From positions 1-25,258 of the IMG/VR virus record IMGVR_UViG_3300006919_000396: a stretch of 25,258 nt of DNA; one strand, written 5' to 3'. Shown one piece after another: positions 3,518 to 20,961 of this stretch. How positions within the stretch are numbered: position 1 is the first letter of the stretch; every line of letters starts with the position of its first letter. Made by a program: the position numbers and the translations under genes. The notes under the pieces are model-generated. The model was not told the origin of the DNA. It saw only the letters and a program-made list of their open reading frames with translations, and did no database searches. The DNA is from a virus.

Positions 3518-3721
3518 ATGCACAGCAGCTACAAGGACCCAGAGCCTTTCGGCCTGCCGCGCGATGAGGATGGATGGACGGTGACGAACCTGTTCGGCCG
3601 CATCGTCTGTTTCAGCGATAAGCACGGGTCAGCCGCCGTGGTGAACGGGCGGGTGACGCAGAGGGCGTCGAAGGCGGAGACGCGGCAGACAGTGGCCGAG
3701 ATCGTATCGCTCGGCGAATGA
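3518..3721 (+). CDS. Hypothetical protein, 67 residues, leading the glycosyltransferase cassette
   Basis: No family recognised. The protein has a pattern of short beta strands (GWTVTNLFGRIVCFSD, HGSAAVVNGRVTQRA) and a short C-terminal helix. The ATG at 3518 has an AGAGAGGG site eight to ten bases upstream, the same kind of site as that before the 5431 gene. An earlier in-frame ATG at 3488 lacks one. Its TGA overlaps the ATG of the membrane glycosyltransferase (ATGA at 3718-3721), so the two are translated together and probably work together, for example as a small regulatory or chaperone subunit. That role is inference only. Confidence 0.65.
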   Translation: MHSSYKDPEPFGLPRDEDGWTVTNLFGRIVCFSDKHGSAAVVNGRVTQRASKAETRQTVAEIVSLGE

Positions 3722-5418
3722 CCCGCACCGATTACTATGCGCTTGGAGCGATCCTGCTCGTCGTTTCAGCACTGCTGCTGGCGGTTCCGGCGATAGCCAT
3801 CACCGGAGACGAGCCGAGGTACATCCTGTTTGCCGCCAGCATCTGGGAATACGGGGCGCTTGTCATGCCGGCAGCCGAATGGGTTCAGCATTCGTCCGCA
3901 TGGCTGGGTTACCAGATGGATGCCCTGCCCGCCTTAGGGGACGGTGCGATCCTCGGTCATCCAATCTACGTCACAGCCCTATTGTCACCGTTTGCGGAGT
4001 TTGGGACGGCGGGGCTTCGCGCGACGGGATTGATCGTCGGGCTGCTGGGTCTAACCGCGCTTTACGTCGCGATGCGGCACGCCGTTGGGCTGGTTCCGGC
4101 GTCGATCGCAACCCTGTGTGCTGGTCTGCTGTTTCCGCTGGTTCCATACCTACACACCTTCTGGGCAGAGGTCTTCATCTTCGCGGGCATCGCTGCGGGC
4201 CTAATGCAGCTACCCCGCGCAGGCGAAAGCAGATTCTCCGATCTCTGGCGCGGAGCCATCATTCTCGTCATCCCGTTCATCCACCTACGCGGTGCGGTGA
4301 TCGGTGCCGCGATATTCCTCGCGTTCTTCCTGCGGGTCTACCATAGCGCCGGGCTCGACTTCAGAAGGCTGGCCCCGTTGGCATTGCTCGCCGCCGCTTT
4401 CGCCCTGCTGCTCATAGGCCTGAACATCTTCGTCTACGGCTCTCCGATCGGCTCCGTGACCACCGCCCGGCCGCCGTCGTTGTTTGAAGTCTACGATGTC
4501 GTGGCGACAAACCTTGTGACCGTGAAGGGCCTCCTGCCATACGCTCCGATCTGGGTCCTCGGCTACGCTGGGCTGATAGCGGGAGCCGTTCGCCGAGAAC
4601 GGCTTGTCGTTGAGTGCAGCGCTTTCGCGATCGTGGCGCTCCTCACATCGATCGGAATCAACCCGGGTGAAGGAGCGCCGGGACGATTCCTCATCGCCTC
4701 CGTCCCCATGCTTGCCATCGGGCTGGCCTACTGGCTTTCGCGCTCAGACAATCGGTGGCAATGGCTACTGACATCCGTGCTTCTGGTGCTGTCCCTGGTG
4801 CACACGGCCGTATTCATCGTGCGCCCAAATCTGCATCTGGAGAACCGGCAGTCAGATGTCGTGTTCCAGCACATATTTGACCGGATCGGCCTGTTCAACT
4901 TCGGCTTGTCCGCTCCGGTCGAAGGGCTCGACACGGGTTTGGGGAGAGCTTTCCTTCTGATCGTTTGCCTGCTGGCTGTTCTAGCAGCAACATCCATCAT
5001 CTACGCTCGGCGACGATTTGCCGTGGCGGGGTTCCTGCTGGCGCTCGGCTTGCTGGAGATGACAAGGGCGAGCGAGATACCCGTTCAACCCACGATCGAG
5101 GGCGGCGTCTTGACCGCAGCGCTCCCGACGACACCTGGGCAAGTCTCGATGATCTTCGGGAAGCCATGGGAGCGCTGGTACGCACCGCCTTATCCGCTGA
5201 TAAACAGCACGACGTCGATCCCCGGAGGGTTTGTCGAGCAGGACACCCGCCCGGCCAACCCGATATTCTCCGAAGCGTGCTTCCGAGGAATTGATACGAT
5301 GACGCTGCAATCCTCCGGCATTGACCTTGCCGCCGCCTCGAAGTTCCGCCTGCGCGCTTTTGAGACGGCTTCGGTGTTGAAACGGTCCTATATCCGATTC
5401 ATGCAGATATGCGACTGA
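3718..5418 (+). CDS. GT-C-type multi-pass membrane glycosyltransferase (putative surface-glycan modification)
   Basis: This 566-residue protein has about ten to twelve hydrophobic segments. The first (residues about 8-28) is followed by ITGDEPRY (about 29-35), the acidic Asp31-Glu32 pair in the first periplasmic loop expected at the active site of GT-C enzymes such as ArnT and PMT relatives. These use lipid-linked sugars on the outer face of the inner membrane. A roughly 110-residue C-terminal soluble region follows the last helix. The gene lies on the opposite strand to the late operon, convergent with the tailspike gene. This is the usual place and orientation for lysogenic-conversion genes that change the O-antigen receptor. 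No GtrA flippase or GtrB bactoprenol transferase accompanies it, so it would have to use host lipid-linked sugars. The specific substrate cannot be read from the sequence. Confidence 0.75.
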   Translation: MTRTDYYALGAILLVVSALLLAVPAIAITGDEPRYILFAASIWEYGALVMPAAEWVQHSSAWLGYQMDALPALGDGAILGHPIYVTALLSPFAEFGTAGLRATGLIVGLLGLTALYVAMRHAVGLVPASIATLCAGLLFPLVPYLHTFWAEVFIFAGIAAGLMQLPRAGESRFSDLWRGAIILVIPFIHLRGAVIGAAIFLAFFLRVYHSAGLDFRRLAPLALLAAAFALLLIGLNIFVYGSPIGSVTTARPPSLFEVYDVVATNLVTVKGLLPYAPIWVLGYAGLIAGAVRRERLVVECSAFAIVALLTSIGINPGEGAPGRFLIASVPMLAIGLAYWLSRSDNRWQWLLTSVLLVLSLVHTAVFIVRPNLHLENRQSDVVFQHIFDRIGLFNFGLSAPVEGLDTGLGRAFLLIVCLLAVLAATSIIYARRRFAVAGFLLALGLLEMTRASEIPVQPTIEGGVLTAALPTTPGQVSMIFGKPWERWYAPPYPLINSTTSIPGGFVEQDTRPANPIFSEACFRGIDTMTLQSSGIDLAAASKFRLRAFETASVLKRSYIRFMQICD

Positions 5419-13592: not shown

Positions 13593-14164
13593 TCACTCCT
13601 TGGTCTGTAGCCAGTCCCAGAGCGCATCGGCTTCCTCTGACGACAGGTCACTGCCGGCATCGGGATTGTTCGCCTGCTGGTAGCCCTCGACGACTGCGAG
13701 GTACTGCCAGATGCTCATGCGGTCGATTTCTTGCGGGGTGAAGCCGAGGACGGCGCCGGTTCCGTAGATGGCAGCGAACCGGAGTTTGCCGTTCGGGAGC
13801 GGCGCTTCCCCCGACCCCGACTTGCTGCCTCTGCTTTTTTTCCGACTTCCTCCTCGGGCGCTCCGATCACGCCCGCGGTTGCGATGTCGAGCGCCAGCTT
13901 CCACGATTCCATCGGGGGCCGGTCCTCGACATATTGCCGGATGAGCTTCAGAGCCTTGGCTGGCTCCAGACCACCACCGATCAGGCCGTAGCGGATGACC
14001 TCGCGAATGTCCTCGATACGCCAGCGGCCTGCCGCCAAACGGTCGAGGATGACATACGGCCCCGCGTCGCAGGATTCCTGAATGTCGCGCCATTCGCCCC
14101 AGCCGAGGCGAAAGGTGTAATCGTCATCGCCGAAGGCCGCGGTGTGCGAACCGTTGCGGCTCAT
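13593..14164 (-). CDS. Tail assembly chaperone, long frameshift product (gpGT-like)
   Basis: The second frame (stop at 13593) has no own start signal but encodes FAAIYGTGAVLGFTPQEIDRMSIWQYLAVVEGYQQ, the pattern of the T domain of tail assembly chaperones. It is joined to the first frame by a -1 slip on a run of seven As (minus strand, 13841-13835) after 110 codons, then reads SRGSKSGSGEAPLP for 80 residues, giving a 190-residue fusion. G-type and GT-type products act together to fold tape measure and recruit tube protein; neither enters the virion. Coordinates span both frames; the joint is at the A run. Confidence 0.85.
13715..14164 (-). CDS. Tail assembly chaperone, short product (gpG-like)
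   Basis: This is the unshifted 149-residue product. Residues about 10-105 (DDDYTFRLGWGEWRDIQESCDAGPYVILDRLAAGRWRIEDIREVIRYGLIGGGLEP) match the tail assembly chaperone of gene transfer agents and related phages, whose job is to chaperone the tape measure. The last 40 residues (RGRGKRRSRTANSGS and on) are low-complexity, as expected for the end of the short form past a frameshift site. The ATG at 14164 overlaps the stop of the tail tube gene by one base. Confidence 0.88.
   Translation of the reverse strand: MSRNGSHTAAFGDDDYTFRLGWGEWRDIQESCDAGPYVILDRLAAGRWRIEDIREVIRYGLIGGGLEPAKALKLIRQYVEDRPPMESWKLALDIATAGVIGAPEEEVGKKAEAASRGRGKRRSRTANSGSLPSTEPAPSSASPRKKSTA
13835..13841 (-). promoter_or_regulatory. 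Slippery heptamer A AAA AAA for programmed -1 frameshift
   Basis: On the minus strand the zero frame reads GTC GGA AAA AAA GCA, so the heptamer has the X XXY YYZ form with all As. A -1 slip continues as AGC AGA GGC AGC in the frame of the T-like domain. The 0-frame and -1-frame codon phases were checked against both ORF ends and agree. It lies between tail tube and tape measure, the conserved position for this event in siphophages. Confidence 0.88.
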
Positions 14165-14668: not shown

Positions 14669-15472
14669 TCAGATCAGCAAAGTGCGCTTTGCGCCCTTGC
14701 TGACGTTTTCCCCTGACCACAAAGGCCGGAGATTGGTTAGCGCCCACGCAGCCTTGAAGCCGGGGCACTCAGGGGTGGCGAAATCGAACGACGCGAGTGG
14801 CAAAATGTGATCGATGTGCCATTCGCTCCTGTTCGCCCAAGACATCCCTTTGGCAAACTGGCGTTCCAGGTGAAGCATCAGGTCGTTTAGCGAATATCCC
14901 ACCAGGGTTTCCCAGCGCCTGCCTGACTTACCCGCCTGCATAGAGAGGCGGATTCCGTGCGATATCCTCTTACTGATGTCATACCCAGGGTTTGAAGCGC
15001 GGTGTTCGCGTTCCCACGCATTGACCATGGTCCGTCGATGCTCGGATCGGGAGTAAGCAATCAGTTTTTCTCTATCGCGCGCTCGCTCTTTGGCGCGTCT
15101 GGCGAGGACCTTCTCGCGATTCCTCTCATTATAGCGCCGGACTTTCGCCCTAGCCTTCTCTCGGTTGTTCGCAGCCCATGCGTTCATGCTCTCCTTTCGA
15201 GCGAATGGCTTGCATGGCTCGCAGAATATCTTCCGAGCTTTGGATGGGAAGCTGTCTCCGCATCGTTTGCATATCGACAACCGGGGCGGCTCAGCCGCTT
15301 TGCGCCGGTGATATCTCTCCAACTGGTCTATACGCCGGGCCGCTCGTTTGTACGTGAACTGGCAAGGCTGGCACCGCTTCTGCTTTGACCCGGTTCGGTC
15401 GAAACGCACGCCGCAATCGGCGCAGTCCACTGGCGCAAAGCATCGAGCAACGGTATTCGTCTGATTAGCCAT
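14669..15472 (-). CDS. HNH homing endonuclease with zinc-finger N-terminus
   Basis: This 267-residue protein has two CxxC pairs near the N-terminus (CADC at 21-24 region with CQPC, then CKRC with CEPC), probably zinc-binding. A long Arg/Lys/Glu-rich helix follows (NNREKARAKVRRYNERNREKVLARRAKERARDREK). The C-terminal HNH nuclease is WHIDHILPLASFDFATPECPGFKAAWALTNLRPLWSGENVSKGAK, with the His-Ile-Asp-His pair and the downstream Asn of the fold. It is a free-standing homing enzyme, inserted between two neck/tail genes in the same direction. The ATG at 15472 has GGAGG five bases upstream; the TTG at 15487 lacks one. The low-GC valley around it fits homing. Confidence 0.88.
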   Translation of the reverse strand: MANQTNTVARCFAPVDCADCGVRFDRTGSKQKRCQPCQFTYKRAARRIDQLERYHRRKAAEPPRLSICKRCGDSFPSKARKIFCEPCKPFARKESMNAWAANNREKARAKVRRYNERNREKVLARRAKERARDREKLIAYSRSEHRRTMVNAWEREHRASNPGYDISKRISHGIRLSMQAGKSGRRWETLVGYSLNDLMLHLERQFAKGMSWANRSEWHIDHILPLASFDFATPECPGFKAAWALTNLRPLWSGENVSKGAKRTLLI

Positions 15473-15501
15473 TCTGACCTCCGACAAGGTTGGCTTGGTT
15501 A

Positions 15502-15954: not shown

Positions 15955-16407
15955 CTATCGTTTCCTCGCCTTGCGAACGGCTTTGTTGACGGCGCCCGCG
16001 ACCTTGCGCCGGATGCGCTTCTTGTTGGCGCGGTAGGTCGGGAAGACATGGGGCTGCGCGGCCATCTTGACCGTGCCAAATTCCAGAAAGCGCCAGATGA
16101 ACTCCGCGAAGATGCCGGTGGCGTTCGGGTCTTTGGACGTGCCCACACGGACCTTGCTTCGTCCGGCTGTTCGCCCGCTGAGCTTTGCGCCCTCGATGCT
16201 GGCCCGATATTCGCCAGTCTCGCCAAGGGGCGCGACACGTTCGATCGCAACGGCCAGATCCTGCGCCGCTTCAAGCTGCGCCTCTGCCACTTCCTTTTCC
16301 GTGTCCGGCAGGAGGCGATTGAGCCGCCGATAGAGCGCCGCCCGGCCTTCAATCTTGGCCCTGACCCTCACGCCGCGGTTCCGCTCTCCACGGTCAAATA
16401 AACCCAT
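15955..16407 (-). CDS. HK97 gp10-like head-tail joining protein
   Basis: The 150-residue protein matches the HK97 gp10 family: VRVRAKIEGRAALYRRLNRLLPDTEKEVAEAQLEAAQDLAVAIERVAPLGETGEYRASIEG, then GIFAEFIWRFLEFGTVKMAAQPHVFPTY, with the typical FLEFGT and QPHVFP motifs and a basic C-terminal tail (RANKKRIRRK). It connects head and tail in the neck. The gene overlaps the head-tail adaptor by 40 bases. It is in the usual position between adaptor and DUF3168 protein. Confidence 0.9.
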   Translation of the reverse strand: MGLFDRGERNRGVRVRAKIEGRAALYRRLNRLLPDTEKEVAEAQLEAAQDLAVAIERVAPLGETGEYRASIEGAKLSGRTAGRSKVRVGTSKDPNATGIFAEFIWRFLEFGTVKMAAQPHVFPTYRANKKRIRRKVAGAVNKAVRKARKR

Positions 16408-16718
16408 GCCGGATCGGTGACGCCATCCACCATGTCGATGGCGTAGACCGTGCCCAGGCGCGCGTCCCTCATCCGCCAGCCCGGCTGGATCGACCGCGTC
16501 TGCGACGATGAACGGACATAGACGCCGAGCACATTGCGGCCTTCCAGCCGCGCGGCGATGACCGCCTCGGAGCCGCCGCGATGGCGGAAATCCGCGCGGG
16601 TCTGGAACTGCTCAGCGAAATCGCCGGCCACGGTGTTCCCGTAGCCATCATCGACAGTCGAGCGAGCATCGAAAGCCACCCGATGGAGAAGATCGGGGGC
16701 ACTAGGCGGTTTCGCCAT
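16368..16718 (-). CDS. Head-tail adaptor protein (SPP1 gp16 / phage_H_T_join type)
   Basis: The 116-residue protein reads APDLLHRVAFDARSTVDDGYGNTVAGDFAEQFQTRADFRHRGGSEAVIAARLEGRNVLGVYVRSS, then WRMRDARLGTVYAIDMVDGV and YLTVESG. The GYGN motif, RADF and EAVIAARL are typical of the head-tail joining family that plugs the portal exit. The ATG at 16718 has GAAGG about eight bases upstream; the longer frame to 16760 has no better site. It overlaps the preceding small gene by 17 bases. Confidence 0.87.
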   Translation of the reverse strand: MAKPPSAPDLLHRVAFDARSTVDDGYGNTVAGDFAEQFQTRADFRHRGGSEAVIAARLEGRNVLGVYVRSSSQTRSIQPGWRMRDARLGTVYAIDMVDGVTDPAWVYLTVESGTAA

Positions 16719-16878
16719 CGTCTTTCGCCTTCCTTGGCGCGGCCACGGCCCCGGCTGCAATCGCCGCGTTGATGTGTGCCTGGGGCGCGCTTCCGCTCCA
16801 TCCGGCCTTGTAGGCGACCGTCACCGGCTTGCTCGGGACGCGGTAGTCGAAATCGCGCAGGAATGTCGCTCGGGCCAT
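16702..16878 (-). CDS. Small phage protein, 58 residues
   Basis: The sequence is RATFLRDFDYRVPSKPVTVAYKAGWSGSAPQAHINAAIAAGAVA followed by a basic tail. The start overlaps the stop of the glycosyltransferase-like gene by one base (TGATG). The longer frame to 17052 is arginine-rich and lies within that gene, so it is a shadow. Small proteins with the DFDYRVP...VTVAYKAG pattern occur next to the head-tail adaptor in related phages, in my recollection; the function is unknown. Confidence 0.6.
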   Translation of the reverse strand: MARATFLRDFDYRVPSKPVTVAYKAGWSGSAPQAHINAAIAAGAVAAPRKAKDDGETA

Positions 16879-17492
16879 CAGATCCAGTGCTCCTTCAACC
16901 AACCGACGTTCGGCAATTGATGCGGCTTCCGTTCTCCGTGGAAGTAGACGACCCGCGTGTCGCCAAGCCCGCGCTTCTCTACGTGACCTTTGTAGGACCG
17001 AACCGCGCCGGGGAACTCGTCGTCGATGAACCGATGCGCGAAGCGCCGGCACCAGACCATGTCGTTCTCGCCGCGATGCTGCGATGCCACCTTGCGATGG
17101 CCCGCCGGCACCAGCGCCACCCCGTTGCAGGCGATCTGCGGATGGTAGGGATCGCGGGGAAGCGCGAACCGATCTGCCGTCATGCAGTAGTCAGCGAGCG
17201 CGTCGCAGTTGCCCGTGACGACCGTGTCGAGACCCACAAGGATCATCGGAACCCCCATGCGATAGGGCTCGATGCAGGTCGAATAGTCCGGCACCTTGGC
17301 CTTGATGCGCTTCTGCTCGATGGGCTCGGAGAATGTCCGGTCCTGATCGGTGAAGCACACGAAACGGAAGGGCTGCGACAGGTTGCGGGCAAAGCCGCGG
17401 TAGAGCTTCTCAACCCATTCTTCCGAATAGCAGCGGGAGAAGTTGCGGGAGCCGCTGTTGGCTTCCCAGAACAAGGTCGCGACCGTGAGCAC
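16878..17492 (-). CDS. GT-A-like glycosyltransferase in the neck operon
   Basis: The GTG start (17492-17490) gives 204 residues. It opens with a strand and motif typical of nucleotide-sugar enzymes (VLTVATLFWEANSGS), followed by YRGFARNLSQPFRFVCFTDQ (31-50). VGLDTVVTGNCDAL (86-99) resembles the DxD-bearing strand of family 8-like transferases (LDTVVTG), where LD is the sugar-nucleotide-binding pair. The C-terminus RVVYFHGERKPHQL is common in phage-encoded members. The ORF extends upstream to 17540 but that part overlaps the neighbouring gene. The gene starts on the last base of the upstream stop, so it is coupled. The acceptor is unknown: a virion protein, host glycan, or host sugar pool are all possible. 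Confidence 0.68.
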   Translation of the reverse strand: MLTVATLFWEANSGSRNFSRCYSEEWVEKLYRGFARNLSQPFRFVCFTDQDRTFSEPIEQKRIKAKVPDYSTCIEPYRMGVPMILVGLDTVVTGNCDALADYCMTADRFALPRDPYHPQIACNGVALVPAGHRKVASQHRGENDMVWCRRFAHRFIDDEFPGAVRSYKGHVEKRGLGDTRVVYFHGERKPHQLPNVGWLKEHWI

Positions 17493-17686
17493 TAGTCCGC
17501 GCGAACTTCGCTCGACAGCTTCGTCAGGTAGGCCGCGCACGCCTCGCCGTAGGAGGGTTCGACACCATCCGACTCTTCCCGAAGGAACTCGTTCACGGAC
17601 TGGAACTCACGCTCGAACTCTTCCGGCGTTTCGATGAAGCGCCGCATCCATTCGTTGAAGCATTTCACCATCTGAACGTTGGTCAT
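17492..17686 (-). CDS. Hypothetical phage protein, 64 residues
   Basis: The sequence TNVQMVKCFNEWMRRFIETPEEFEREFQSVNEFLREESDG, then YGEACAAYLTKL is acidic and helical. I recall similar small proteins near phage neck genes but know no function. The ATG at 17686 follows GGAAGG seven bases upstream; the ATG at 17701 has no site. Its TAG shares one base with the GTG of the glycosyltransferase-like gene, so the two are co-translated. Confidence 0.65.
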   Translation of the reverse strand: MTNVQMVKCFNEWMRRFIETPEEFEREFQSVNEFLREESDGVEPSYGEACAAYLTKLSSEVRAD

Positions 17687-17706
17687 TTGGAGGCCTTCCA
17701 TTGAAG

Positions 17707-18231
17707 CTATGCGGCGTACCGCATCCGCTTGCCACGCCGATCAAAGGGGATCGGCACCCATCCGCCACCACGGCGCCACAGGCAGCCATCCGGCACATCG
17801 CGGTCCACGACTGCGCAGGCAGCCACAACGGCGCCCCTACCCACTCGCACGCCCGGCAGGACAACCGCATTCGCTCCGATCGACGCGCCATCCTCGACAA
17901 TCACGCAGAACCGCTCACCAGAGCGCAGGAGCGTGTCGTCGTAACCGGCCATCGAGACTTCCGGCCAGACATCGTTCGCAAAGACCACATTCGGGCCGAC
18001 GAACACGTCATTGCCGATCTGGAACCCCGGCCCCATGACGACGCCGGATGAAATCTTGCAGCGATCACCGAAGACCGCGCCCGAGAGCACAACCCCTGCC
18101 CCGACAGTGCAGTCCTCACCGATCACCGTGCCGCAAACCACCGAAGCGAATTGCCAGACCGTCGTGCGAGCGCCGACAGTGGCGCCCTCGACATGCGCCT
18201 GGGGGTGAATGGCAGCCTGCAAGTCGATCAT
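17707..18231 (-). CDS. Left-handed beta-helix sugar N-acyltransferase (WlbB/FdtC-like)
   Basis: The 174-residue protein is made of hexapeptide repeats ([16 protein letters not shown], then [26 protein letters not shown] and [24 protein letters not shown]), the fold of left-handed beta-helix acyltransferases. The stretch [14 protein letters not shown] (77-90) resembles the fingerprint of 3-amino-sugar N-acetyltransferases such as WlbB and FdtC, which acetylate UDP- or dTDP-linked amino sugars. The ATG at 18231 overlaps the stop of the connector gene (ATGA). The longer frame to 18507 overlaps the connector and is rejected. The C-terminus ([10 protein letters not shown]) is basic. Which sugar it modifies is not readable. 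It is one of three carbohydrate-type genes interspersed among neck genes. Confidence 0.8.
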
Positions 18232-18797
18232 CGGAAGATCCGCCGATTGCTCGCGATCTCGCGAAGGGCCTTTTCCTTCACCGGCTCGCCACCATCGTAG
18301 ATGGCGCGGACCATGGCGGTAATGTTGCGCTGGTCGTTGGCATTCGGCGCCAGTTCCGGGTCGTCGCCCGATCCGCTCGTGCTCGGGTCGTCGTAGCCGG
18401 CGGAAAAGCGCACGCGAACCGGGAACTGCCGGGTCGAAAGCGTCGGGGAACCGAAACTGTCGTTGAACCAGACCTCGGCGCCGTCGTCCGTCTGCCGGAT
18501 GTACCAATCCGCGGCGTCCACCGTCTGCTCGGCATGGGTTGCGTCGAGATACAGGACCGACACGACCTCGCGAACCGGCGAGGCCGGGATGCAGATTGGA
18601 TCATCCCAGCGCTCGCTGCGATATTCGAGATCCGCCGGCAGCATCATGCGCCCGGTGTAATCCTCGTATCGGCGAGTCTCCGACCGGATGTCCCGTGTGA
18701 GCATGTCGTCATCGTCCGCGAAATCGACGCGCAGGTCTGCCTTCACGTCCTCAAGCGGAACAGCGAGCCCGTCTGGTGTCGATAGCCGGATCAGCAT
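18228..18797 (-). CDS. Head-tail connector (HK97 gp6-like)
   Basis: The 189-residue protein has the gp6 pattern: [42 protein letters not shown], then [25 protein letters not shown] and IRVRFSAGY-like [11 protein letters not shown], ending with helical [10 protein letters not shown]. It forms the first ring below the portal. The ATG at 18797 has GGAGG seven bases upstream; the TTG one codon earlier is not needed. It starts 47 bases before the end of the MptE-like frame and is coupled (ATGA) to the acyltransferase downstream. Confidence 0.9.
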
Positions 18798-19398
18798 CAA
18801 GGGCCTCCAGAAGGCTCATCTTCGGATAGTTGACCAGAGCCGAAATCGGGCTGGCGTTGATGACCGTGATGCCCATTGCGGCGATCGTCTCGGCCGCCGC
18901 GTCCATGCAGCGCCGCCAGCGATCAACATTCCGGTCTGTCGGGTTGTTCAGGCCGGCGGCGTGGCGCCCGTGCCAATGAAGGCCGTGGTCAAGCCGCATG
19001 TCGAAGCCCACCAGCACGATCTTCGCCGGATGCATCTGCACAGCGAGGTTCAAGCAGTGGAAACCGGAGTTGCCGGACCATCCGACAGTCCCGGTCTTCA
19101 GCAATTCGAGCCGGTCATCGTGCTTGTTGACCCCAACGGCCTTGATGCTCCAGGGCTTGGCCACCGCTGTCTTGTCGACAGACAGTTTCAGCCCGGTGAA
19201 GTCAGGCACGCCCTGATTGACGCGCCACCATGCGAAATCGCAGGCGTAGAGCGCATCAGCCCACGGCGCGAGGCGCCAGGAGTTGTTGATCGCGATCAGT
19301 CGGCAGCGGTCTTCCGCTTCGTATAGCGGCGCTTTTGCCGCGCTGGGGCCTCCTGCGACGACGACGATCGTTTCGCCTCGCCAGTCGGGCCACCAGTC
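18751..19398 (-). CDS. MptE/DUF115-like Rossmann protein (sugar or nonulosonate-type), start unresolved
   Basis: From about 19398 the frame reads DWWPDWRGETIVVVAGGPSAA, then CRLIAINNSWRLAPWADALYACDFAWW, NSGFHCLNLAVQMHPAKIVLVGFDMRL and GLHWHGRHAAGLNNP. This is the glycine-rich pattern of the MptE-like/DUF115 (MAF_flag10) fold, known in Maf flagellin glycosyltransferases and in phage proteins of unknown role. The stop is at 18751. The frame upstream contains no ATG, GTG or internal TTG; the only legal start is TTG at 19581, which would translate the upstream gene's region in another frame and sits too close to that gene's ribosome binding site. The given 5' limit is where family-like sequence begins. 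Rare start codon, frameshift from the 93-residue gene (a -1 shift) or assembly error remain open. Confidence 0.62.
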   Translation of the reverse strand, partial: DWWPDWRGETIVVVAGGPSAAKAPLYEAEDRCRLIAINNSWRLAPWADALYACDFAWWRVNQGVPDFTGLKLSVDKTAVAKPWSIKAVGVNKHDDRLELLKTGTVGWSGNSGFHCLNLAVQMHPAKIVLVGFDMRLDHGLHWHGRHAAGLNNPTDRNVDRWRRCMDAAAETIAAMGITVINASPISALVNYPKMSLLEALDADPAIDTRRARCSA

Positions 19399-19577
19399 TG
19401 GTCCTCCCGAGGGGTGGCGGCTGCCGTCTTGGCGGCCTCCTTTGTCGATGACTGCACCGGAACGAACAGGCCGCGCTTCACGAGTTGCTGAGCCTGATGA
19501 TCCGCCACGTCGATGATCTGGCCGCGCCGGACCCGACCGTAGCCGCCGAATGCGCCGCGAAGGGCCTTGATCTGCAT
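19296..19577 (-). CDS. Small post-capsid protein, 93 residues
   Basis: The N-terminal half (MQIKALRGAFGGYGRVRRGQ, then DHQAQQLVKRGLFVPV) matches the short phage proteins that often follow the major capsid gene, with a KOW-like beta fold. The C-terminal half is low complexity and basic (KRSSSSQEAPARQKRRYTKRK). The ATG at 19577 has a near-perfect AAGGAGG five bases upstream, the strongest site in the region. It overlaps the MptE-like frame in a -1 relation for about 100 bases of family-like sequence and may be the leader of a frameshift product. Confidence 0.75.
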   Translation of the reverse strand: MQIKALRGAFGGYGRVRRGQIIDVADHQAQQLVKRGLFVPVQSSTKEAAKTAAATPREDQTGGPTGEAKRSSSSQEAPARQKRRYTKRKTAAD

Positions 19578-19599
19578 GCAAACCTCCTTCGGTTCATGA

Positions 19600-19641: not shown

Positions 19642-20961
19642 TCAGCCGGAGACGTTGCCGAAGTCGCCGGTAACGAGTGCCCCCGGACGCTTCACGGCGA
19701 GAGCGAGACGCTCTTCCGCACGCACCGTCAGCATGTTCTTGATGAAGTTGTCCCGATCCTCGGACGAGATGAGCACTTCCGCGTCCATCCGGTCGTAGAT
19801 CTTCGCGGCCATGCCGAAGGCGCCGGTGAGGAACTCGTCCTCGTCCATCGCCTGGGTGGCGACGACCGGGCGACCCCAGAGCTGCGGGCCGGCCATCTGG
19901 ATCACGTTGGCGAAGATGTAGCGGCTCTCGCCGTCCTTCGTCAGCTCGATCCGCGCCCAATCGGTCGGGTGCAGCACGATGCCGTCCGCCGGATACTCGG
20001 CCAGCGACGCCTGCAGGAGCGCGAGGCGAAGCGTGTCGATCATCGTCTCGCCGGACACCGAGAACGCCGCCGAGTAGGCGGTCGCGTTCGGCACCAGACC
20101 GGACAGGTGCTCGCCCGTGCCGTCGCCCTTGAGGATTTCGTTCTCCTCAGCGAGCATCAGGCCGTAGCGCAGTTCGCCGTCGATCTCCGACTGGAGCTGC
20201 GCCGCGTCGTCCATCGCCTGACGCGAAATGTGGACCCAATGCGCGATGGTGCGCACCGGAGCGTCCGCACGCTCGTAGGTGTAATTGGACTCGGGCTTCT
20301 GGGCGCCTTCCGAGACGACCGCAGCATTGTTGGTGCGCGCGAGCATCTTGGCGTACTCGACCAGATTGGACGTGGTGCGCCCGGTCTGGAGAAGCTGGCG
20401 AATGGTCATCTGCCGGCGGGGAATGCCGACGATTTCCGTTTCCCGATCCGACCAGATCAGGCTGCCGCTGGAGCCGGTGGCCGACGTGATGGCGTTCTGC
20501 ACGCCGATCTTGACCGTGCCGCGGGCGCCGTTGTTGACGAACGACTTCAGCTCGTCGCTTTCGATGGTCTGCTGGCCGAACGATTTCGGCTTGTCTTCGC
20601 CACCACCGCCACGGAAGCCTGCGAGCTTCTGCTCCAGGTCGTGATTGCGGGTCTCCGCCGCTTCCAGCCGGTTCTCCAGCTTGGTGTGGGCGTCGGTCAG
20701 CTTGGACTGCGCAGTCAGAAGGTCGTCGGCCTTGGACTTCAGTTCGGAAGTCGTGTTGCCGGCGTCTTTACTCTGCTTCAGCGCGTCCTCGGCGGTGCGC
20801 TTCACGTCGTCGCCGACGCGCTTCAGTTCCGACTTCACGTCGGCCAGCAGCTCTTCGAGCTTGCCGGGGTTGGTCTCGTTGCGCACCGAACCGAAAACGC
20901 CGGCAGGACGCGCAGCCATGAGTGCCAGCACGTTCACGTGCGGCATCTTGCGGATGCTCAT
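19642..20961 (-). CDS. Major capsid protein (HK97 fold) with N-terminal delta domain
   Basis: The 439-residue protein forms the head shell. Residues about 30-120 are a charged coiled coil (NPGKLEELLADVKSELKRVGDDVKRTAEDALK, then LTDAHTKLENRLEAAETRNHDLEQKLAG), the scaffolding delta domain removed by the protease. The mature part starts near KSFGQQTIESDELKSFV (about 125-145). It continues with RETEIVGIPRRQMTIRQLL, TYERADAPVRTIAHWVHISRQAMDDA, DGELRYGLMLAEENEILKGDGTGEHLSGL and ILHPTDWARIELTKD, all characteristic of the HK97 family. The ClpP-like protease gene is immediately upstream. Length is normal for the unprocessed form. A separate scaffold gene is not needed and not seen. Confidence 0.95.
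   Translation of the reverse strand: MSIRKMPHVNVLALMAARPAGVFGSVRNETNPGKLEELLADVKSELKRVGDDVKRTAEDALKQSKDAGNTTSELKSKADDLLTAQSKLTDAHTKLENRLEAAETRNHDLEQKLAGFRGGGGEDKPKSFGQQTIESDELKSFVNNGARGTVKIGVQNAITSATGSSGSLIWSDRETEIVGIPRRQMTIRQLLQTGRTTSNLVEYAKMLARTNNAAVVSEGAQKPESNYTYERADAPVRTIAHWVHISRQAMDDAAQLQSEIDGELRYGLMLAEENEILKGDGTGEHLSGLVPNATAYSAAFSVSGETMIDTLRLALLQASLAEYPADGIVLHPTDWARIELTKDGESRYIFANVIQMAGPQLWGRPVVATQAMDEDEFLTGAFGMAAKIYDRMDAEVLISSEDRDNFIKNMLTVRAEERLALAVKRPGALVTGDFGNVSG

Follow-up and report, generated by a model that had tools for sequence, protein, structure and literature searches.

Two carbohydrate-enzyme modules in the head operon of a phage, one of them probably expressed by programmed −1 frameshifting

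Introduction

Glycosylated virions are known from the mycobacteriophages Che8, Corndog and Myrna (Freeman et al., 2023, as cited in PMC11256854 and PMC12363180). These phages encode glycosyltransferases, as does the virus described here; sugar is carried by their capsid and tail-tube proteins. The putative glycosyltransferase genes of mycobacteriophage Maravista (cluster F1) lie near the 3′ end of the genome and not in the head block (PMC11256854), and the accessible portions of these sources describe neither a paired acetyltransferase nor a frameshift.

Two bacterial flagellin systems are also close. The central pfam01973 domain of a crystallised Maf flagellin transferase is similar to CstII, and CMP-Neu5Ac and CMP-Kdo are the donors used by a clostridial Maf (PMC11339370). 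Caulobacter FlmG has a separate targeting domain, a TPR domain through which the transferase domain reaches flagellin (PMC7591256). Phages, for their part, use −1 frameshifting to produce a longer, minor version of a protein from a late structural operon, as in the tail-assembly chaperone G-GT and in Ig-like capsid extensions (PMC5009743, accessible portions).

Here we analyse a 25,258-base IMG/VR virus record (the window; the rest of the genome lies beyond it). Its head operon encodes a GT42/DUF115-like transferase domain (ST), a hexapeptide sugar acetyltransferase (AcT) and a GT8-like glycosyltransferase (GT), together with a HeH/DUF7302-like small protein (HeH). Both enzyme families, ST and GT, are also represented by orf6.5/orf7 of phage D3, TVGG_00049-50 of virus S20 and pmgO/pmgQ of P1. 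D3 and S20 share with the window both the slot after the capsid gene and the HeH-ST overlap, but there the genes are annotated as separate and ST is truncated after its GPS motif. P1 pmgO differs in having its own ATG and lying outside the capsid region; surveys by CRISPRi and by deletion found pmgO (ST family) and pmgQ (GT family) to be dispensable (PMC10695390). We found no published description of an HeH-ST frameshift or an AcT-GT head cassette in the open-access literature.

Results

Gene content and order. All genes of the locus are on the minus strand, in the order TerL, portal, protease, capsid, HeH, ST, connector, AcT, 69-aa ORF, GT, 58-aa ORF and head-completion gene. The major capsid protein (19642–20961) is assigned as HK97-type from its ORF and the conserved gene order. 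HeH (19296–19577) matches phrog_2616 (E 1.5e-11) and DUF7302 (E 6e-4) and is kept in relatives. ST (18751–19413; phrog_4603, E 1e-50) is followed by the head-tail connector Ad1 (18228–18800; TIGR02215, E 1e-12, above cut-off; phrog_442), AcT (17707–18231; PF00132, E 9e-23; phrog_5353) and the 69-aa ORF (17492–17701; phrog_32159, E 9e-13). GT (16878–17492; phrog_1962, E 7e-47) has a GTG start. The 58-aa ORF (16702–16878; phrog_29233, E 1e-6) and the head completion/closure protein Hc1 (16368–16718; PF05521, E 2e-11) complete the block. The PHROG labels, given by homology, suggest an ‘alpha-2,3-sialyltransferase’ for phrog_4603 and a ‘glycosyltransferase’ for phrog_1962.

An earlier sequence-only reading had placed three carbohydrate-type genes between the major capsid and head-tail adaptor genes, with the connector between the first two and with coupling by short overlaps. 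Family scans recover these genes in that order, with HeH and the 69- and 58-aa ORFs as additional genes absent from that reading. From ST downstream the genes are packed with small overlaps or gaps: ST and the connector overlap by 50 nt, the connector and AcT have ATGA in common, and a single base is common to the 69-aa ORF and GT and again to GT and the 58-aa ORF. The order MCP-HeH-ST-Ad1-AcT-GT is kept in relatives, so the clustering is not due to chance. At the DNA level, the phage collection returned only short pieces of related sequence.

Beyond the tail genes, on the opposite strand, the window encodes a 566-aa hydrophobic protein, probably with multiple membrane spans (3718–5418, plus strand). 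It had no PDB, PHROG or significant Pfam match; its sequence would be compatible with a GT-C-type membrane glycosyltransferase.

The HeH-ST overlap. The sequence-only reading put the start of ST at 19398. The only ATG, GTG or TTG available to the ST frame upstream of the GGPS motif is a TTG at 19581, which abuts the Shine-Dalgarno ribosome-binding site of HeH, so this start does not hold. ST overlaps HeH by more than 100 nt and occupies its −1 frame. For comparison we assembled 113 distinct ST loci with a GPS motif and called ST start-less if no ATG, GTG or TTG lay within 130 nt. By this definition ST was start-less at 42 loci and had a start at 71; the loci were fetched by similarity, so neither these nor the following counts represent independent events. 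An overlapping ORF placing ST in the −1 frame was present at 38 of the 42 start-less loci compared with 7 of the 71 others, whereas overlap in the remaining frame occurred at 7 loci in each group.

The start-less overlapping loci share a candidate slip motif. Of the 38, 30 have CCCT in the ST phase and a single one has it out of phase (the invariance of CCCT in our alignment A6 is by construction). The longer form CCCTTY was found in 21 of the 38, always in phase, and CCCTTT in 15. Read in the HeH frame the motif is C_CCU_UUY, a heptamer for simultaneous slippage when its last base allows. The window has a weak form, CCCTCGG (C_CCU_CGG, 19407–19413), which permits re-pairing of the P-site tRNA only. 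D3, left out of the start-less set on account of an in-frame GTG, has CCCAAAG in phase. Several loci have ST-frame stop codons just 5′ of the motif, which means that the shift cannot occur further upstream; in virus S20 a stop directly precedes the motif, and none follows until WWP.

The pattern of substitution changes at the same place. We took the motif as the anchor and compared 40 pairs of start-less loci. From 25 to 168 nt upstream, 42–57% of mismatches fall at HeH-frame third positions. From the motif onward, 42–67% fall at ST-frame third positions (a sparse last bin excepted) and the HeH-frame share drops to 11–33%. A different selection of pairs gave the same picture; since the pairs are related, the periodicity is to be read as a pattern and not as a p-value. 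The coding frame thus changes at the slip motif, and the 0-frame tail beyond it shows no sign of constraint of its own.

We looked for accessory signals with little return. The HeH-ST overlaps gave no consensus RNA structure that might stimulate slippage, and Shine-Dalgarno-like sequences upstream of the motif occur at uneven distances with no fixed spacing. Some phage frameshift sites have no stimulatory element, according to the accessible portions of PMC5009743. Among the ST loci examined, none carried HeH and ST as an in-frame fusion gene that dispenses with the frameshift.

Taken together, the start-less overlap, the in-phase motif and the frame switch at the motif argue that ST is very probably made as an HeH-ST fusion by programmed −1 frameshifting. 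We hold it highly probable that the fusion protein is made in the family as a whole and, a step less firmly, likely that the window copy makes it. Two readings dispense with a frameshift: separate translation of ST, beginning at a non-AUG codon, and an overlap that is a sequencing or assembly error. The weak slip site of the window and a possible ATC start at 19449 lend them some weight for the window copy. Yet no near-cognate codon is common to the loci, and in S20 the stop directly before the motif stands in the way. Error is hard to reconcile with the identical sequence of other contigs of the same virus and with the same HeH/ST relation in 38 divergent loci, and neither version predicts the switch in substitution periodicity. 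We regard both as improbable.

A fusion would also account for public annotations that lack the N-terminal motif. ST is annotated from past the GPS motif in virus S20 (L002, 6455–6925) and in phage D3 orf7 (L003, 5160–5618), apparently because the frameshifted N-terminus went unrecognised.

ST family and fold. ST was first read as an MptE/DUF115-like protein. Besides its phrog_4603 match, it matches PF01973 (MptE-like) at only E 0.001, below that family's cut-off. No PDB entry was matched by sequence. The nearest fold to the AlphaFold2 model (AF2, pLDDT 95) is CstII of family GT42, with a TM-score of 0.59 and a modest E of 1.6e-3, and there were further weak matches to other sialyltransferases. 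A pterin kinase assignment (MptE/DUF115) was considered and rejected: thiamine pyrophosphokinase was also matched (TM 0.42), with CstII the better of the two. The suggested likeness to Maf flagellin enzymes fits this fold match, as the closest structural relative of ST is the one that the Maf pfam01973 domain resembles. By analogy with CstII and Maf, ST may use CMP-linked donors. At least 575 IMG/VR stretches encode an ST relative, at odds with the earlier view that such a system is not usual for siphophages.

AcT and GT. Both remaining enzyme assignments of the sequence-only reading are confirmed by the matches. AcT is a hexapeptide protein of the WxcM/WlbB/FdtC type; its nearest PDB entry is the WxcM-like 4mzu (E 3e-28), and alignment with the WxcM-like structures 4mzu, 7s43 and 3mqg shows that the (A/C)ND motif is kept. 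GT has a GT8, glycogenin-like fold (E 7e-8 on the AF2 model, pLDDT 96; profile match E 3e-9), consistent with the GT-A-like transferase first proposed. It keeps HGxxKP and has GLD at the DxD site; GLD is invariant in its subfamily, whereas most wider relatives have DLD. All three proteins, ST, AcT and GT, look like carbohydrate enzymes with conserved motifs.

The AcT-GT pair in the head block. We scanned outward from GT, taking as usable the 60 distinct loci with at least 900 nt upstream. AcT was present in all 60 and lay within 600 nt upstream in 57. Loci fetched with ST, which span 15 distinct AcT-GT lineages including the window, agree: wherever GT exceeds 45% identity, AcT closely precedes it, with a gap of at most about 260 nt. 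AcT and GT are therefore a near-obligate pair. ST is independent of it, being present in only 24 of the 49 pair loci with 3 kb upstream in the GT-seeded scan. The three genes had been read as one trio, which we reject; ST belongs with HeH, through the probable −1 frameshift. Genes carried independently at random positions were named beforehand as evidence against a joint function. Independent carriage is indeed seen, but the positions are not random.

Many pair loci that lack ST fall in two further settings: between portal and scaffold/capsid in Gp13-like phages, and between capsid and adaptor in SU10-like phages. Recognised head genes lie near 63 of 92 distinct GTs (HK97-type 30, SU10-type 14, Gp13-like 19); the other 29 are unclassed by head type, many being short or having unrecognised neighbours. 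Mapping head type on the GT tree takes 11 changes, compared with a mean of 27.7 and a minimum of 21 after shuffling. GT follows head type, yet has crossed between head types. In one host family it was found in 3 of 299 genomes, with prophage-like surroundings in at least two.

Longer clusters occupy the same slots in many relatives, with GT9, GT8-like, GT2 and GT-D transferases as well as methyltransferases, FkbM and TylF among them. In virus S20 sugar-type genes form a block between capsid and head closure. Four loci (L052, L054, L099 and L135) have large sugar-gene clusters between the terminase/protease genes and the portal. These sit before the portal and not after the capsid, so the head-block slot varies.

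Two neighbouring proteins deserve mention. In 38 loci (cluster 2; L131:1757-2623 and others) an ST that has its own ATG stands behind an adjoining gene for a collagen-like protein (PF01391); the C-terminal repeat of this protein resembles, by eye, a carbohydrate-binding module, and the protein is a possible candidate for a head fibre and glycan acceptor. In SU10-type phages a TPR protein (L218:4045-5478) lies directly upstream of AcT-GT. Its domain plan recalls FlmG (TPR plus transferase), and no family was identified for its C-terminal half.

Discussion

We propose that the head operon holds two carbohydrate-enzyme modules that would add sugar to a protein of the head or neck, or else to some molecule present during head building. 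In the first, a fraction of the ribosomes translating HeH would slip one base back at C_CCU and enter ST, so that the ST catalytic domain would be made only when attached to the HeH domain. The HeH domain probably targets ST as the TPR domain does in FlmG, a role suggested by analogy only. Compared with Maf and FlmG, no flagellin is involved here, and the proposed targeting domain is HeH, added by frameshift. In the second module, GT would transfer one sugar residue and AcT would acetylate that sugar or its activated donor. We put the probability of this explanation as a whole at roughly 0.5.

That ST is seemingly made only by slippage points to an unrecognised phage route of decorating the particle with sugar. 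A more specific version couples decoration to assembly: the slip beside the capsid gene would let a small share of HeH deliver the GT42-like transferase to heads as they grow. An acetylated sugar would be added by AcT-GT, a separate and mobile cassette, with both modules keeping to the head block and the cassette having crossed unrelated capsid lineages. This version is tentative, and we think it somewhat more likely to be wrong than right.

The acceptor may be a virion protein. This is our leading view, and we would give it about even odds. Particle modification fits the head-block position across lineages, the coupling to head genes, the sporadic occurrence in hosts and the dispensability in P1, where nonessential ST- and GT-family members are as expected for decoration. 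HK97-type, Gp13-like and SU10-type capsids are unrelated, which makes a common capsid acceptor unlikely unless the enzymes have re-specialised.

The main rival is modification of the host surface, with LPS or capsule precursors altered late in infection or in the lysogen so as to change the receptor and block superinfection. Sugar-modifying morons of temperate phages commonly act on the host surface, LPS synthesis includes hexapeptide acetyltransferases and GT8 enzymes, and the opposite strand of the window encodes the unrelated 566-aa putative membrane protein. However, the enzymes are cytoplasmic and lie in the head operon with no adjoining flippase or polyprenyl-phosphate transferase. Reading the ORFs of the window and scanning selected genes revealed no gtr serotype-conversion set (flippase, bactoprenol glucosyltransferase, membrane GT). 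That the AcT-GT pair recurs among the head genes of phages whose capsids belong to three unrelated families is easier to square with a virion substrate than with a host-surface moron, and a surface role leaves the HeH fusion unexplained. We consider this rival unlikely. Glycosylation of modified bases in the phage genome, a known process in phages that would suit a packaging-linked position, is very unlikely, as neither the 25-kb window nor the slot clusters hold a base hydroxylase or precursor enzyme and the substrates of the nearest structures are proteins and glycans.

As virion glycosylation is already known from mycobacteriophages, what would be new is a cassette in the head slot and an enzyme made by frameshifting, not glycosylated phages as such. 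If two-module decoration is correct, the mycobacteriophage cases greatly understate how common glycosylated virions are among phages, and the head block is a genetic address from which such glycosylation can be predicted. The HeH-ST frameshift, if real, would be the first case found in the open-access literature of phage recoding that attaches an enzyme to a head-operon protein. It differs from G-GT and Ig-like recoding in adding an enzyme and in having HeH as its base gene; the accessible portions of PMC5009743, PMC3711429 and PMC10885494 do not describe recoding of this kind. Our reading predicts a peptide that spans the HeH-ST junction and a shifted mass for a virion protein.

Two further features of the window lie among the tail genes, both on the minus strand. 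An HNH/endonuclease VII-like gene (14669–15487; phrog_1035) between the tail terminator and the major tail protein is probably a free-standing homing-type endonuclease; a related gene occupies a comparable position in the relatives L069 and L048. Two overlapping ORFs upstream of the tape measure (14164–13715 and 14093–13593, together 13593–14164) look like the classical tail-assembly-chaperone frameshift pair.
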